Shown here: piece after piece, positions 44,935 through 50,227 of the stretch | Layout of the letters: every line of letters begins with the position of its first letter | Position numbering within the stretch: the first letter of the stretch is position 1 | Assembly: GCA_021741205.1 (NCBI GenBank) | Contig: JAIOYI010000002.1 | Span: forward strand, 124,001-188,000 | Length of the DNA stretch: 64,000 nucleotides | DNA from: Emcibacter sp. | GTDB lineage: Bacteria; Pseudomonadota; Alphaproteobacteria; Sphingomonadales; Emcibacteraceae | Reading direction: 5' to 3' | The notes under the pieces: generated by a model | The model's input: the letters and a program-made list of their open reading frames with translations, nothing else | What the model was told of the DNA's origin: nothing | The model's database searches: none | Position numbers and translations under genes: made by a program

Positions 44935-45681
44935 ATGACGAGACAGCTTGAAGGAAAAATTGCCCTTGTCACAGGAGCAACCCGTGGCATAGGGGCTGCT
45001 GTAGTTCAGGCTTTGGCAAGCGAAGGCGCCCATATTATAATGGTCGGTCGCACCACAGGCGCCCTAGAAGATATGGATGATGCCGTGCGTGAACTTGGCT
45101 CAACATCAACATTGGTTCCCCTAGATCTTATGGATTATGACGGTATTGACAGACTTGGACATCATGTGGCCACCACATGGGGAAAACTTGATATATTAGT
45201 CGGAAATGCAGGTATTTTAGGTCCCATCAGCCCCATTGGGCATATCCCGCCTAAGGAATGGGATAAATTAATGGCCGTCAATGTTACCGCCAATTACCGT
45301 CTTATTCGCTCATTTGATCCTTTGCTCAGGGCATCCGATGCGGGACGGGCTGTTTTTGTGACATCCTCCGTTGCGGAAAATGCCCGTGCCTATTGGGGAG
45401 GGTATGCCACAACAAAGGCCGCTCTTAATTGTATGGTTAAAACCTATGCTAATGAAATTGCCAACACCACCAATGTCAAGGCCAACATCATAGTCCCAGG
45501 CGCCATACGCACCAGTATGAGAGCAGCCGCCGTTCCAGGTGAAAACCCCAATACCCTTGATACGCCAAAGCAGATTGCACCATTATTTGTCAAAATGCTG
45601 TTACCAGAATTTCAAGAAAATGGCGTCATTATCTCTTATCAAGACTATAAAAAGGGTTCTTATAAAAATTTATCTCTATAA
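44935..45681 (+). CDS. Short-chain dehydrogenase/reductase downstream of purF
   Basis: A 248-aa classical SDR. The cofactor motif is VTGATRGIGAAVV, NAG occurs in VGNAGILGP, and the catalytic residues are Ser in VTSSVAENA and Tyr/Lys in GGYATTKAA. It begins 15 bases after purF with AGGA ahead of the ATG, so it is probably the last gene of that operon; an SDR in this place is common in alphaproteobacteria. Its substrate is unknown. The 3' end overlaps the convergent GNAT gene by six bases. Confidence 0.88.
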   Translation: MTRQLEGKIALVTGATRGIGAAVVQALASEGAHIIMVGRTTGALEDMDDAVRELGSTSTLVPLDLMDYDGIDRLGHHVATTWGKLDILVGNAGILGPISPIGHIPPKEWDKLMAVNVTANYRLIRSFDPLLRASDAGRAVFVTSSVAENARAYWGGYATTKAALNCMVKTYANEIANTTNVKANIIVPGAIRTSMRAAAVPGENPNTLDTPKQIAPLFVKMLLPEFQENGVIISYQDYKKGSYKNLSL

Positions 45682-46653
45682 AGATTTTGTCAGTGACAAG
45701 CTTTGGGCTGGCTTAAACCCGCTATTTTGCAAGAAACTTATCAAGGACAATTGATCAGACCCCGCCTCTGTCCGTACATGGTCAGTACGCAAGACCGTTA
45801 AATTTGCCATAAGCTGTGATAATAGAGCGCTCCCCACATGTTTGTGTGCATAGTTAGGATCAACGCCCAAGGTATCAATAATAGCGGAAGGTTCCGTTCT
45901 GCCAAATTCACCAAAATCAACACGTGCCATAACAAAACCCACCACATGATCATCAAGTTCCGCCACAAGCGATACGCGGATACCAGATTCCTGCATGATC
46001 TCGTTCATTTTACGCTCATAGTAGGATGATCGATCAAAACCCATAATTTTGCTGTCTATTTTCGTGATCGCATAAAGATCATCCTTGGTCAGACTACGAC
46101 AGGGTACCTGATCCCGAGATAAGGCAACCGTATCATCACCAGAAGGGTCACTGAAATCAATTTCGTCTGAATCTCTCTCTTCTTCAGGAACGATGGGATC
46201 CAAATAACCTGCATCCCGTTCATAAATATAACGTGGGGCAAGATCAAAACCCGTAGCAGAAAAATAATGCAATATATTTTGATCAGACCAATCTGCCTGG
46301 CTGCGGATTTCTTGAATGCCCTTCTTCTGAACAATAGTAGTCAGTTCCTGCATCAAGACCCGGCCAATACCCTTTCCTTGTGCCTCTTTGCTGACACCGA
46401 TATCATCAACAACAGCAATGACTTTATCAATGCCAAATTCCCCATGTTGCAACCTTGCCAATAAATAGCCTTGGACATTTCCGCCATTTACATAGGCAAT
46501 ATAAACATATTCTTTAGGGTCTTTTAAAGCCGCAGCAACACGTTTTTCAAAGAAATTTTTCCTCGATCTTCCTGTATTACCCTCATCTATCAAGATAACC
46601 TGTTCTAAATCCGTTGCAATAAGGGGACGCAATATTCCTTCAGCTTTGACCAT
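45676..46653 (-). CDS. Tandem GNAT-domain acetyltransferase
   Basis: A 325-aa protein holding two GCN5-related N-acetyltransferase domains. In the first (about 1-150), GVSKEAQGKGIGRVLMQEL carries the acetyl-CoA loop Q/RxxGxG/A. In the second (about 185-325), GVDPNYAHKHVGSALLSQL is a more diverged version of that loop. An acidic linker with DSDEIDFSDPSGDD joins them. Tandem GNATs usually have one active and one structural domain; the first loop looks the more canonical. The substrate cannot be read from sequence. Confidence 0.82.
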   Translation of the reverse strand: MVKAEGILRPLIATDLEQVILIDEGNTGRSRKNFFEKRVAAALKDPKEYVYIAYVNGGNVQGYLLARLQHGEFGIDKVIAVVDDIGVSKEAQGKGIGRVLMQELTTIVQKKGIQEIRSQADWSDQNILHYFSATGFDLAPRYIYERDAGYLDPIVPEEERDSDEIDFSDPSGDDTVALSRDQVPCRSLTKDDLYAITKIDSKIMGFDRSSYYERKMNEIMQESGIRVSLVAELDDHVVGFVMARVDFGEFGRTEPSAIIDTLGVDPNYAHKHVGSALLSQLMANLTVLRTDHVRTEAGSDQLSLISFLQNSGFKPAQSLSLTKSL

Positions 46654-46702: not shown

Positions 46703-47209
46703 TTATCGTATTTCTGAATATTCCATCATTAATTCGGCATCTTCTTCTGGCTCTATAATATCCTCTAACATAGGCAGAAGTGCCATTTCCTCTTTCTGGA
46801 TGTGGGAAATCATGCGTTCAATCAATTCAACACCAGTTTGTCGAAATTGAACCCATAAGGCATCATTAAAACCGTCCGAGCGTGCTACCTTAGCCAGTTC
46901 AGAGAGTAAATTTCCAAGGGGCGCGATCACATTATGTTCATTGGTTAGAATATAACTTATGGGACTATCCCCCATAGCACCCAATAAAGGAAATAATTTT
47001 TTTTCCTCAAAAGCAAAATGATTTTTGACATCACACTCGGCAAGATTAATAACATCCCCCAATAAAGGGGATATCATGAGATCATCAGAGCCTGGTGTTT
47101 TTTTAGGACCATATTTTTGAAACACACCTTCTAATTTTTCAAGAACACTAATAGTCACAAGATGTTCATCATGAAGGGTGCGGGTTATTTGACGATCAAA
47201 TGAAAACAT
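46703..47209 (-). CDS. Hemerythrin domain-containing protein
   Basis: A 168-aa four-helix-bundle protein with histidines and carboxylates in the hemerythrin order: HDEH near 18-21, HFAFEEKKLFPLL in the middle, then HNVIAPL and a final HIQKEEMALLPML. These residues would hold a non-heme di-iron site that can bind oxygen or nitric oxide, or, as in YtfE/RIC-like proteins, help repair iron-sulfur clusters after nitrosative stress. A 20-bp site shared with the DUF2249/GNAT intergenic region lies 22 bp upstream (47232-47251). It follows the membrane-protein gene by 100 bases. Confidence 0.85.
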   Translation of the reverse strand: MFSFDRQITRTLHDEHLVTISVLEKLEGVFQKYGPKKTPGSDDLMISPLLGDVINLAECDVKNHFAFEEKKLFPLLGAMGDSPISYILTNEHNVIAPLGNLLSELAKVARSDGFNDALWVQFRQTGVELIERMISHIQKEEMALLPMLEDIIEPEEDAELMMEYSEIR

Positions 47210-47231
47210 AAAAACTCTCTTAATTAAATAT

Positions 47232-47251
47232 GTATTTTGGTACTGTAATAC
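47232..47251. promoter_or_regulatory. Candidate operator, copy 1 (upstream of the hemerythrin gene)
   Basis: GTATTTTGGTACTGTAATAC is an interrupted palindrome (GTATT, central GTAC, AATAC). It matches copy 2 at 49220-49239 in 17 of 20 positions. It sits 22 bp ahead of the hemerythrin start codon, where a repressor would block transcription. The best candidate binder is the Rrf2 protein encoded at 49769. Confidence 0.55.
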
Positions 47252-47309
47252 TTATTAATTTTAAAATCAACCTCTTTATGAAATTTTATATAAACATTCT
47301 GCTAAAAAT

Positions 47310-48581
47310 TTAATTGGATTTGGCTTTCACCATATGAGCCATAACGGAGACCAGAAAATACAATAAAGAGATCGCAGAAACAAATCCAATGACGGCACCC
47401 GCCCTCATCAAATCTTCCAAATCAAATGCAATAGCCACAGAGGCCGTAAAAAATCCTATCAAATGACAAGTTCCACTGACTTTCAATAATCTGTCATCTG
47501 CCATGGATGATACCAACATCGGAACACCCCCCGTATCAGACGTATGCATGCTGCTTAAAAAAGGAATAATTCTTTGCAAAACCCCCATAAGGAAAGTTAA
47601 AAGCCAGCCAACTATGGCGAGTAATCCTAAAATAATTGGGCCATATTCAGGCCAATATCCCATTAAACCCAAACCACCCCATAAAATACTTGAAATAAGC
47701 ATGACCCAACTGATCCTAATCAGCAGGAAAGGCATCCCCAGGCGTTTTCTCATGCGGGATTTATAGACAAGCATCATGCTGTGAACATAAATTCCCGAGC
47801 CAAAGCACGCCGACAAAACACCCAATAGACTTAACCACGTCTGTGCACTATTAACGCCCCACAAAACAAGCAAAAGACCAAAAATATTACTCAACACCGA
47901 CAAACGTCCTCTATACTCAGGTGGTGCAGGTGAAAGACTGAACATTGGAATTAAAATATAAGAAAATCCCATAGCAAGCAAACTCATAAATCCATATGTG
48001 GCGAGAATAAAATGACTTAATGCAATGGATAAATGATCATCCATAAAGCCTTTATCCATATCAATAATAAGTAAAATACCTAAGGCTATAATACCCCCTA
48101 ATGATAGCATGGCCGCCCAGCAATGGATCATGATAGCACCCATCCCCTTGACGCCCCAAATATTATCTATAATCAGATAAAAATAAATCAAAAGTCCTGC
48201 ACCCGTTAGCACCGCTCCAAACAACATCCCTAAATATAGGGAGAAAAACATCGAATAGGCCAAAAGCATAAAACCCAATATATAAATCCACGAAACAAGA
48301 CGACATAACCAAAACCCCTTAAAGGGTCTTCGTGTTGCTACAGATAAAAGTTGTAAAGAGGCACCTATGGCGCTCATGGTCAAGACCCCTAAAGTTGCCA
48401 AATGGATCATACTAAGGACAGGACCGCTTCCCATAATATAACCCCTAATTTGATCTGCATTAAAAAAAACAAATATCCAAAACAGACCATAAAAAATCAC
48501 TGCTGCCGTAAAAAAACGAAAAGGAATGGAAGGGGGCAAAAGTCTGCTGCTTGCGCCTGATAAAAAATTATTTCCCAACAT
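47310..48581 (-). CDS. Multi-spanning membrane protein, NnrS/heme-copper-oxidase-like
   Basis: A 423-aa inner-membrane protein with about 12 predicted hydrophobic helices and few soluble loops. Histidines fall inside helices (IHLATLGVLTM, MIHCWAAML, LSHFILATYG, GIYVHSMM), the arrangement expected for heme or metal ligands in NnrS and heme-copper oxidase relatives. NnrS proteins protect cells during nitric oxide stress. Assignment to NnrS itself is uncertain, since I recognise the fold pattern rather than a diagnostic motif. The gene overlaps the upstream DUF2249 gene by 14 bases, so the two are co-expressed; hemerythrin follows on the same strand. Confidence 0.65.
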   Translation of the reverse strand: MLGNNFLSGASSRLLPPSIPFRFFTAAVIFYGLFWIFVFFNADQIRGYIMGSGPVLSMIHLATLGVLTMSAIGASLQLLSVATRRPFKGFWLCRLVSWIYILGFMLLAYSMFFSLYLGMLFGAVLTGAGLLIYFYLIIDNIWGVKGMGAIMIHCWAAMLSLGGIIALGILLIIDMDKGFMDDHLSIALSHFILATYGFMSLLAMGFSYILIPMFSLSPAPPEYRGRLSVLSNIFGLLLVLWGVNSAQTWLSLLGVLSACFGSGIYVHSMMLVYKSRMRKRLGMPFLLIRISWVMLISSILWGGLGLMGYWPEYGPIILGLLAIVGWLLTFLMGVLQRIIPFLSSMHTSDTGGVPMLVSSMADDRLLKVSGTCHLIGFFTASVAIAFDLEDLMRAGAVIGFVSAISLLYFLVSVMAHMVKAKSN

Positions 48582-49158
48582 CTTTTCCGTTTTCCTTTTC
48601 CTGAATAATTTTCACCAAAATACCGCCCTCATTCTGCTCAATAATCTCTGCGTGCCATTTTCTTGTGACCAGTTCTGGATAAAGATAGATAGGATCACGG
48701 CTCAGTTTCACAACAAAATGACCCCTGATATCCCCGCTTTCAATAATTTTAAGGATTGCTATCATGGGATTTGGGGGACTGAGCTGCCTTAAATCCATTT
48801 CCAAAATCCCATCCTGCCAATAAAGCGGAAAAGGAGGCAAATCGGTAATATTTGGTAGTAAGGGTAGCGTTGGACTTTCTTGTTTTTTAAAATAAACCTG
48901 CCAATGGTTACTCGCCTTTTCAATAACGTGGCAATTATATCCTCTTGATGCCATCATGCGCCGCAAAGGCAATGGATCAAAAGGAGCCTCTATTCGTAAA
49001 ATATCATCCTCAGCCAAAGCCTCAACCTTTGCCATTATCTGTACCAAGGGATCATTGCCTTCTGCTAAAACGGGACGCACGTCCAATTTAATACAATGAT
49101 CATCTTTACAATTCATAACCCAATGGGGTATTTTTGACATGGAATTAACCTCTGGCAT
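48568..49158 (-). CDS. DUF2249 domain-containing protein
   Basis: A 196-aa soluble protein with two TusA-like halves. The first, with LDVRPVLAEGNDPLVQIMAKVEAL and LRIEAPFDPLPLRRMMASRGY, is a DUF2249 domain; the second, with MDLRQLSPPNPMIAILKI, repeats the fold more loosely. DUF2249 genes recur beside hemerythrin, NnrS and nitrite or nitric oxide reductase genes. Two starts are possible: a 13-bp tandem duplication (49144-49169) gives each of ATG 49158 and ATG 49140 its own AGAGG site. It leads the unit with the membrane protein. Confidence 0.78.
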   Translation of the reverse strand: MPEVNSMSKIPHWVMNCKDDHCIKLDVRPVLAEGNDPLVQIMAKVEALAEDDILRIEAPFDPLPLRRMMASRGYNCHVIEKASNHWQVYFKKQESPTLPLLPNITDLPPFPLYWQDGILEMDLRQLSPPNPMIAILKIIESGDIRGHFVVKLSRDPIYLYPELVTRKWHAEIIEQNEGGILVKIIQEKENGKDVGK

Positions 49159-49169
49159 TAACCTCTGGC
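49144..49169. repeat. 13-bp tandem duplication over the DUF2249 start site
   Basis: ATTAACCTCTGGC occurs at 49144-49156 and again at 49157-49169. On the - strand each copy carries AGAGGTTAAT, so the ribosome-binding site is duplicated. The ATG at 49158 spans the junction, while the ATG at 49140 uses the downstream copy. Both starts are in the same frame. Confidence 0.85.
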
Positions 49170-49219
49170 AATATCATCTTTTTATATCAAGACCATAACA
49201 ATAGCTTGAAGATAACATA

Positions 49220-49239
49220 GTATATTGGTATTGTAATGC
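49220..49239. promoter_or_regulatory. Candidate operator, copy 2 (DUF2249/GNAT-Rrf2 divergent region)
   Basis: GTATATTGGTATTGTAATGC is identical to copy 1 (47232-47251) in 17 of 20 positions. It lies between the DUF2249 gene on the - strand and the GNAT-Rrf2 pair on the + strand, so one bound protein could control both, including the regulator's own gene. Confidence 0.55.
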
Positions 49240-49259
49240 GCAATTGATAATAATATAAA

Positions 49260-49772
49260 ATGATAATCAGGCATTATAACCAGAATATGACACCATCTAA
49301 TACCTTAAATAATAAAAATGATATTACTGTACGTAGTGCAATCGATCGTGATTTGCCTCATATCATTGACCTTGATACCCGTAATGGCGGCATTAGCAAG
49401 CCCGACTACTGGCCAGAATCCTTGCGTCGTTTTGGTGGCAATAAAGAAGGTCGCCATTTTTTGGTTGCTGAAAAGAATAACCTTATTGTTGGCTTTATTG
49501 TTGGTGAAATCAGAGCATGGGAATTTGGTTCGCCTCCCGGTGGTTGGGTATTTTCCTTGACCGTTGACCCAGACACGCGACTTTCCGGCGTTGCAACCTT
49601 AATGTTTCATACAATATGCGATTACTTTAAAAAGGCAGGCGTCGAAAAGGTTCATACCATGATCGACCGTGATAATATTACAGTCATGTCCTTTTTCCGT
49701 AGTCAAGGCATGATGGCGGGAAGCACAATACCCTTACAAATGGCTCTTTCTGACTTAGGGGATATATCATGA
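49260..49772 (+). CDS. GNAT family N-acetyltransferase, RimI-like
   Basis: A 170-aa single-domain acetyltransferase. ITVRSAIDRDLPHIIDLD opens the fold, and the acetyl-CoA site is VDPDTRLSGVATLMFHTI, a variant of the RxxGxA/G loop. MIDRDNITVMSFFRSQGM is the C-terminal conserved helix-strand. The start may be 49260 or the second ATG at 49287; neither has a good ribosome-binding site, which hints at a leaderless or near-leaderless message. The end overlaps the Rrf2 gene in an ATGA junction, so the enzyme and the regulator are co-translated. Confidence 0.82.
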   Translation: MIIRHYNQNMTPSNTLNNKNDITVRSAIDRDLPHIIDLDTRNGGISKPDYWPESLRRFGGNKEGRHFLVAEKNNLIVGFIVGEIRAWEFGSPPGGWVFSLTVDPDTRLSGVATLMFHTICDYFKKAGVEKVHTMIDRDNITVMSFFRSQGMMAGSTIPLQMALSDLGDIS

Positions 49773-50227
49773 AATTACAACGCTCGAGCCGTCTTGCGCT
49801 TTATTCTGTGCTTGAACTGGCATCCAAACCTGACCGTCAGCTTTCCGCATCGGATATTGCGACAAAATTTGATGTATCCCTAAATCATCTTGCCAAAGTG
49901 CTTCGTGATTTAGGCAAAGCAAGACTGGTTGAGGCTGTTCGAGGTGCTGGAGGTGGTTATCGTTTTTGTGGTAACGCACGGCGCACGACGTTAAAGGATA
50001 TTGTCGAAATTTTTGAGCCGATCACGCTTCAAGATGTGGGCGGCTTTGAACCAGGTGACAGAACGGAATTTGGCCTATCTCTTGGCGTTGTTCTTGGTGA
50101 AATTGATGACATTGCTTTGGCAACACTGGATTCCATCACCTTAGAGACCATGCTAAACCTCACCCAAAGAGTGCAAAAACAAATGCCTCAGAAATCTGAA
50201 TCCCCTTCGGAAAACGTATATTCTTAG
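49769..50227 (+). CDS. Rrf2 family transcriptional regulator without Fe-S cysteines
   Basis: A 152-aa winged-helix regulator. MKLQRSSRLALYSVLELAS, the recognition region SASDIATKFDVSLNHLAKVLRDLG and the wing VEAVRGAGGGYRF place it in the Rrf2 family with NsrR, IscR and RirA. Those proteins sense nitric oxide or iron through three cysteines near residues 92-106; here that stretch (FEPITLQDVGGF onwards) has none. The only cysteine is Cys67, in the wing. It therefore either binds no cluster or senses something else. It is coupled to a GNAT gene and faces the DUF2249/hemerythrin genes across a shared operator. Confidence 0.85.
   Translation: MKLQRSSRLALYSVLELASKPDRQLSASDIATKFDVSLNHLAKVLRDLGKARLVEAVRGAGGGYRFCGNARRTTLKDIVEIFEPITLQDVGGFEPGDRTEFGLSLGVVLGEIDDIALATLDSITLETMLNLTQRVQKQMPQKSESPSENVYS

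Follow-up and report, generated by a model that had tools for sequence, protein, structure and literature searches.

Within a 64,000-nucleotide stretch of Emcibacter sp. DNA (the window, contig C6:124001–188000), genes for a hemerythrin, a DUF2249 protein and a membrane protein lie beside a divergent gene pair encoding a GNAT acetyltransferase and an Rrf2 repressor, and two similar 20-bp dyads stand at their promoters. The regulator is very probably of the BadM type, with the window dyads as its operators, an assignment drawn from sequence comparison. We consider it likely that this repressor co-induces class I benzoyl-CoA reductase (BCR), a key enzyme in the anaerobic degradation of aromatic compounds, and a putative module for protection from O2 or nitric oxide (NO). 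Comparison of genomes shows the sites, their conservation, the tie of the Rrf2 protein to benzoyl-CoA pathways and the tie of the module to BCR. The genome that contains the window, G000 (2.57 Mb in 18 contigs; C denotes a contig), was compared with the other members of a set of 16 genus genomes (G000–G015) and with a sample of 289 genomes of the class Alphaproteobacteria.

The dyad in the window and in related genomes

The two sites, GTATTTTGGTACTGTAATAC (47232–47251) and GTATATTGGTATTGTAATGC (49220–49239), are identical at 17 of 20 positions. A sequence-only reading of the DNA had claimed as much, and gene coordinates bear out its placement of the sites, one in the hemerythrin promoter and the other between the DUF2249 and GNAT genes (Table 1). 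When the 64-kb window was searched with a pattern covering both sites and allowing up to three mismatches, exactly these two matches were found; the same search on 100 dinucleotide shuffles gave a mean of 0.04 and a maximum of 1. The symmetry of the sites is GTATT-N3-GTAC-N3-AATAC, which comprises 14 core positions. TTGATT-N17-TACAGT on the hemerythrin strand and TTGAAG-N17-TATTGT on the GNAT strand (spacing judged by eye) each have their second hexamer within a dyad. By our reading of the letters, these TTGA-N17 hexamer pairs are promoter-like, and a second hexamer inside the dyad is as expected for a repressor site.

The intergenic regions of relatives were compared, as the sequence-only reading had proposed. 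The hemerythrin promoter is covered in 11 of the 16 genus genomes, in 12 copies, and all 12 keep the dyad (10 with no core mismatch and two with one). Eleven copies of the GNAT/DUF2249 intergenic region could be examined from ten genus genomes, and TTGGTATTGTAAT was unchanged in all of them. In alignments of ten copies per promoter, both dyads stand out as footprints.

A genome-wide scan, proposed by the same reading, showed the dyad to be rare elsewhere. Across 28 genomes (the 16 of the genus and 12 class genomes with a match to the membrane protein), 46 sites with at most one core mismatch were found, compared with 3 for a reversed-pattern control. Three kinds of promoter account for 40 of the 46: that of hemerythrin (14 sites), the BCR/oxidoreductase region (16, some of them assigned by position beside BCR and not by gene reading) and that of RidA/salicylyl-CoA hydroxylase (10). 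The other six comprise two within coding regions (G002:C133 and G012:C190), stray sites in G010, G251 and G343, beside which no gene of this report was found when they were checked for these genes only, and a site in G008 that is taken up below. In G101, G117, G129 and G238, which have the membrane-protein gene and lack such an Rrf2 protein, no dyad site was found at up to one mismatch.

The Rrf2 protein and its tie to benzoyl-CoA pathways

The sequence-only reading had a single Rrf2 regulator govern both sides of an NO or oxygen defence module; the rival explanation built on it is an NsrR- or IscR-like iron–sulfur protein that responds to NO or oxygen. The window protein shares its fold with NsrR, IscR and RirA, which act on dyad operators, and NsrR uses three cysteines for its iron–sulfur cluster. 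However, the window protein lacks this set of cysteine ligands: it has one cysteine, and among the 12 rows of its family alignment seven have one cysteine and five have none. It scores 87.8 bits against TIGR00738 (cut-off 73.3), and its NCBIfam scores for NsrR (51.9 against a cut-off of 182), IscR (47.6 against 207.55) and RirA (36.5 against 193) fall far below the curated values. Membership of these three families was therefore ruled out by cysteine count and cut-offs. The weak NsrR and IscR matches, the denitrification links of hemerythrin and DUF2249 in the accessible parts of the literature, a NorB-like protein recognized by reading in the own genome and a true NnrS gene that follows the Rrf2 ortholog in G137 would all suit an NO or oxygen sensor; set against the cysteine counts, the scores and the tight association of the Rrf2 protein with benzoyl-CoA pathways and the BCR promoter, such a sensor is highly improbable. 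Thiol sensing through Cys67 was likewise rejected: this residue is invariant in eight genus rows, yet it is a cysteine in just six of the 12 family rows, and so is unlikely to be a general sensor. A structure model of the Rrf2 protein was too poor to use (predicted local distance difference test score (pLDDT) 39) and was set aside.

Assignment to the BadM type is indicated by the GNAT partner, the co-occurrence with BCR and the promoter sites. A clear Rrf2 ortholog (E below 1e-34) is present in eight of the 12 class genomes in which the membrane protein was matched, and a GNAT relative precedes it at all eight loci (one is cut by a contig end). In seven of the eight, no more than about 16 kb separates the Rrf2 gene from BCR on a single contig; in G145 the two are on different contigs. 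The pairing recurs at nine of ten loci in a further set, the exception being G283, and on an Agrobacterium tumefaciens plasmid the pair lies about 5 kb from a gene of the benzoate-CoA ligase family. At two loci, L073 (G241) and L097 (G137), a set of genes that by eye resembles a molybdopterin oxidoreductase stands between the hemerythrin block, or the two-domain GNAT gene, and the GNAT–Rrf2 pair. Close to the NnrS gene of G137 (L097:8830-10092; PF05940, 351 bits) are genes for a Crp/FNR-type regulator and a further hemerythrin.

The arrangement resembles a known system. In Rhodopseudomonas palustris, BadL acetylates aminobenzoates, and the resulting acetamidobenzoates weaken the binding of BadM to the DNA upstream of badDEFGAB, according to the available text of VanDrisse and Escalante-Semerena (2018, PMC6191541), which also notes BadL–BadM-like pairs in Magnetospirillum and Geobacter. 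Insofar as that text describes it, the R. palustris system has in common with ours a GNAT–Rrf2 gene pair, a tie of the Rrf2 protein to class I BCR and the company of benzoate genes in other proteobacteria. It differs in two respects: here apparent operators are also found in front of a salicylyl-CoA hydroxylase cluster and of the hemerythrin/DUF2249/membrane-protein module, and in the own genome about 180 kb separate the pair from BCR. The accessible part of a 2024 survey places BadM beside benzoate-CoA ligase and BCR in the anaerobic benzoyl-CoA pathway, in Alphaproteobacteria only (PMC10803450). The words hemerythrin, Rrf2 and BadL do not occur in this paper, which names BadM and boxC in separate contexts. 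A literature search that mostly could not reach subscription papers yielded, in the text it covered, no paper linking BadM to hemerythrin or placing BadM at box genes.

Across the class sample the association is close. BCR presence was defined by benz_CoA_red_C above its cut-off (11 genomes), and the Rrf2 ortholog was called at E below 1e-47, the next best match being 6e-19. By these definitions the ortholog occurs in 18 of 289 genomes: all 11 with class I BCR and seven of the 278 without (Fisher p 1.3e-15, genomes being counted regardless of relatedness; nine of the 11 BCR genomes, all except G102 and G183, had supplied rows to the search alignment). Among the seven without class I BCR, G124, G180 and G243 have BoxC beside the pair and G336 has BoxB about 2 kb from it, all above cut-off; G171 has an Oah relative, and the last two are G283 and G323. 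The boxC gene belongs to the aerobic benzoyl-CoA epoxidation pathway. In G124, G180 and G243 (L186, L188 and L189), the pair is divergent from boxC, and a dyad with 1–3 core mismatches lies between them.

In the own genome, the gene for an Oah-type hydratase and those for BCR subunits C, B, A and D form one run at C6:352.7–358.4 kb, all above curated cut-offs. This region (G000:C6:352576-358448; L116:12577-18449) is about 180 kb from the GNAT–Rrf2 pair on the same contig. Between the run and a divergent gene for a 2-oxoacid:acceptor oxidoreductase lies GTATTGTGGTACTTAATTAC, and the same 20-mer recurs without change in each of the 11 genus genomes found to have BCR. Forms with at most one core mismatch occur in G060, G241, G244 and G337. 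The local regulon of the sequence-only reading stands, though not its NO- or iron–sulfur-sensing Rrf2 protein: the dyad is a probable operator of the Rrf2 protein next to it, and the regulon extends beyond the locus to BCR and probably to the salicylyl-CoA cluster. BCR, which is distant here, lies within about 10 kb of the hemerythrin block in eight of the 15 genus relatives (G003, G005–G008 and G011–G013). In at least eight relatives BCR and the GNAT–Rrf2 pair neighbour each other, and the distance seen here is a rearrangement in the own lineage. In G011 the entire module with BCR is present twice (C13 and C36; L044 and L043), and this genome is 88% complete with 5% contamination; the double module is either a duplication or the mark of a mixed bin.

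The dyad was also sought at ten loci that had played no part in its definition (nine GNAT–Rrf2 pairs and one Rrf2 gene without a detected GNAT gene), by scanning 250 nt upstream. At six of them (G124, G171, G180, G243, G323 and G336), a dyad with 1–3 mismatches in the 14 core positions lies within 150 nt upstream. None of the 373–385 random windows taken within each locus equalled any of these six, and among 500 shuffles per locus a match as good arose in none at four loci, in 13 at G171 and in 8 at G323.

Several observations weigh against assigning the dyads to a BadM-type protein. At four of the ten additional loci, no convincing dyad was found upstream of the pair: the best match has four mismatches in G102 (borderline) and on the Agrobacterium plasmid, and six in G183 and G283. 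G183 has instead a 14/14 dyad between the genes for RidA and for subunit C of BCR. In G008 alone, a dyad with one core mismatch (G008:C19:5894; L171:2995) lies 18 nt before a PAS/chemotaxis-receptor gene, a site that may be due to chance or may reflect a link to taxis. Finally, G001, G002, G003 and G004 carry dyads, and no Rrf2 ortholog was found in them. This last point, together with MarR-family genes near the own BCR and salicylyl-CoA clusters, would fit an alternative that assigns the dyads to a different regulator, for instance a MarR protein of the aromatic clusters. However, the four genomes are incomplete (62, 74, 64 and 69%, respectively, and the G003 contig ends inside the membrane-protein gene), and G010 keeps the salicylyl-CoA cluster and a MarR relative yet has neither such an Rrf2 protein nor a dyad there. 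Moreover, in loci far from the genus the dyad lies upstream of the GNAT–Rrf2 pair, placed like an autoregulatory site. Ownership by such a different regulator is thus improbable, and we retain the BadM-type repressor.

The hemerythrin, DUF2249 and membrane-protein module

Table 1. Genes and candidate operators of the module and its regulator, in window coordinates.
Feature	Position	Strand	Observations
Two-domain GNAT acetyltransferase gene	45676..46653	-	Pfam Acetyltransf_1; 49 nt downstream of hemerythrin gene
Hemerythrin (HHE) domain protein	46703..47209	-	Pfam PF01814, E 6.8e-12
Putative operator 1, GTATTTTGGTACTGTAATAC	47232..47251	.	22 nt before hemerythrin start codon; 14/14 core dyad positions
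Membrane protein, possible heme-copper-oxidase subunit I-like fold	47310..48581	-	Model with 12 long helices
DUF2249 protein	48568..49158	-	Pfam PF10006, E 8e-23, two stretches; gene overlaps membrane-protein gene by 14 bp
Putative operator 2, GTATATTGGTATTGTAATGC	49220..49239	.	Divergent DUF2249 / GNAT–Rrf2 promoter region; 11/14 core positions
BadL-like GNAT acetyltransferase gene	49260..49772 (start may be 49290)	+	Pfam Acetyltransf_1; 4-bp overlap with Rrf2 gene
BadM-like Rrf2 repressor gene	49769..50227	+	Pfam Rrf2, E 1.9e-21; single cysteine

Pfam matches agree with the sequence-only reading for hemerythrin, DUF2249, GNAT and Rrf2 but not for its NnrS-like protein, and that reading left out the two-domain GNAT gene. 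This gene follows hemerythrin at all nine genus loci that hold both genes and is also found near the module in G060 and G241; in the window the two are probably transcribed together. The hemerythrin residues H13, H16, H64, E68, H92, H136 and E140 are invariant in 15 rows, so that the di-iron site is apparently intact. The protein falls outside the RIC/YtfE family, scoring 35 bits against TIGR03652 (cut-off 204.7).

For the membrane protein, neither Pfam nor NCBIfam gave a significant match. NnrS and COX1 are absent from the Pfam matches of nine members at E up to 5 (HMMER filters drop most matches above about 0.1), and identity with NnrS (PF05940) was rejected; the true NnrS of G137 gives the score quoted above. 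An AlphaFold model (pLDDT 63.8; predicted template modelling score 0.68) found as its best Foldseek match the cbb3 oxidase 3mk7 (E 2.5e-5, TM-score 0.54). On this model of moderate confidence, the membrane protein may share a multi-helix fold with NnrS and heme-copper oxidase subunit I. The latter has conserved heme histidines and a histidine pair for CuB, whereas the only invariant histidines of the membrane protein in 17 rows are H60, H190 and H373, and the conserved CuB pair is missing.

At each of the 11 class loci where the match to the membrane protein is genuine, the DUF2249 gene adjoins it, and all three genes of the module occur together at ten of the 12 class loci that have a match. 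Hemerythrin was not seen at the G129 module locus. The weak match in G145 proved on reading to be a different protein and was dropped from the counts; G145 has a hemerythrin relative (36%) near its BCR. With the own genome included, the membrane protein occurs in 12 of the 289 class genomes, in eight of 11 with BCR and in four of 278 without (Fisher p 7e-11).

This distribution leaves room for a second view of the module, that it serves general anaerobic or NO metabolism, and that BadM control in the genus is a recent recruitment and not part of a device for guarding BCR. Several facts count in that direction and against a dedicated guard under BadM. The membrane protein is retained in four genomes that have neither BCR nor such an Rrf2 protein; two of them, G117 and G238, have a HemN-like neighbour, and G129 has a Crp/FNR-type regulator beside the membrane protein. 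Of the seven BCR genomes outside the genus that have the module, only two (G060 and G241) show the dyad before hemerythrin, and elsewhere FNR-like boxes or nothing were found there. These boxes, scored without a shuffle control and from module starts that are partly approximate, have 0–1 mismatch and lie within 80 nt of a module start in G137, G244 and G129; in G251, G343 and G060 there is one more than 300 nt upstream, of doubtful significance. The membrane protein lacks the CuB pair, and oxidase or NO reductase activity is therefore doubtful. A NorB-like protein in the own genome would also suit general NO metabolism. By contrast, the enrichment of the membrane protein in BCR genomes, the closeness of the hemerythrin block to BCR in eight of the 15 genus relatives and the hemerythrin dyads of G060 and G241, outside the genus, argue for a specific link with BCR. 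Judged from these distributions, the module's tie to BCR is wider than its tie to BadM, and in other lineages FNR may plausibly be in control instead. We rank guarding of BCR first, at a little under even, and general anaerobic or NO metabolism next, as a serious contender that falls appreciably short of even.

A model for co-induction of benzoyl-CoA reductase and the module

We propose that the BadM-type repressor would bind the dyad at the hemerythrin/two-domain-GNAT promoter, at the divergent promoter of the DUF2249–membrane-protein genes and badLM, and at the BCR promoter, with the salicylyl-CoA hydroxylase/RidA promoter as a probable fourth target. By analogy with R. palustris, a product of acetylation by the BadL-type enzyme would free the repressor from DNA. 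In the presence of aromatic acids, the cell would then make BCR together with the hemerythrin/DUF2249/membrane-protein module. The hemerythrin may bind O2 or NO, and the oxidase-fold and DUF2249 proteins may remove or sense these gases and so guard the oxygen-labile BCR. In this model the direct binding of the repressor to DNA, the identity of the inducer and the protective role of the module are inferred.

The available text on BadL and BadM describes the iron–sulfur centres of BCR as oxygen-labile (PMC6191541). The own genome encodes three proteins of the COX1 family: a cbb3 CcoN above its cut-off, a partial CtaD match below its cut-off and a third protein that no NCBIfam model matched and that was read from its sequence as NorB, with NorC-like and NorQ-like neighbours. 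This set, with its CcoN and its NorB-like protein, makes both O2 and NO possible targets of the module, and the sequence-only reading's sense of stress protection may still be right. How facultative bacteria protect BCR is, to our knowledge, an open question. A broader version of the model, in which alphaproteobacterial benzoate degraders have a dedicated BCR guard that is co-induced by the aromatic-sensing BadL–BadM pair, or by FNR in other lineages, so that BCR would be shielded against O2 or NO as soon as it is synthesized, has in our judgement somewhat less than an even chance.

Related proteins have been placed in comparable settings. COG3945 hemerythrin proteins in benzoate clusters of Betaproteobacteria have been suggested to store or scavenge oxygen (PMC6449761, in its accessible part); there, too, a hemerythrin-type protein is under an aromatic-pathway regulator, but the regulators named are BenR, BoxR and AphS, and DUF2249 and the membrane protein do not appear in that part of the paper. 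DUF2249 proteins, including DrpA/DrpB of Thermus, have been associated with hemerythrin, heme-copper oxidases and denitrification in the parts of PMC11218638 and PMC6282519 that were available; those clusters belong to anaerobic respiration, whereas the window DUF2249 protein is tied to BCR. If the model is true, it would provide a conserved candidate protection module for BCR, a 20-bp operator with which to search further genomes for BadM regulons, and an initial function for the DUF2249/oxidase-fold pair. It would also warn against a likely mis-annotation, in that an Rrf2 gene beside hemerythrin genes is not always a nitric-oxide sensor.

The RidA/salicylyl-CoA hydroxylase promoter

At the remaining promoter kind, the dyad precedes genes for RidA (PF01042) and an acyl-CoA dehydrogenase resembling glutaryl-CoA dehydrogenase. 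Divergent from RidA is a gene for a 770-residue protein that matches the NCBIfam model salicylyl-CoA 5-hydroxylase/oxidoreductase above its cut-off; the label 2-aminobenzoyl-CoA monooxygenase was discarded in favour of this name. Fifteen genus genomes have a contig that spans the promoter, and in 14 of them the dyad was found with up to three mismatches in 14 positions. It was not found at this promoter in G010, a genome in one contig that is 98% complete and is without such an Rrf2 protein or BCR. On this sequence evidence, the salicylyl-CoA hydroxylase cluster is probably part of the BadM-type regulon. Together with the dyads before boxC, those before this cluster suggest that BadL–BadM is a general switch of the benzoyl-CoA family, aerobic as well as anaerobic.

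Two of the ten RidA sites in the genome scan lie at contig ends of the own genome, C5:142501 (L046:14502) and C15:41 (L047:41). The ends are 98% identical over 312 bp and each carries the RidA-promoter dyad; they may be one place split in the assembly or a recent duplication. The RidA-like proteins of the salicylyl-CoA cluster (L047:75-485) and the BCR cluster (L116:9452-9838) are 57% identical.

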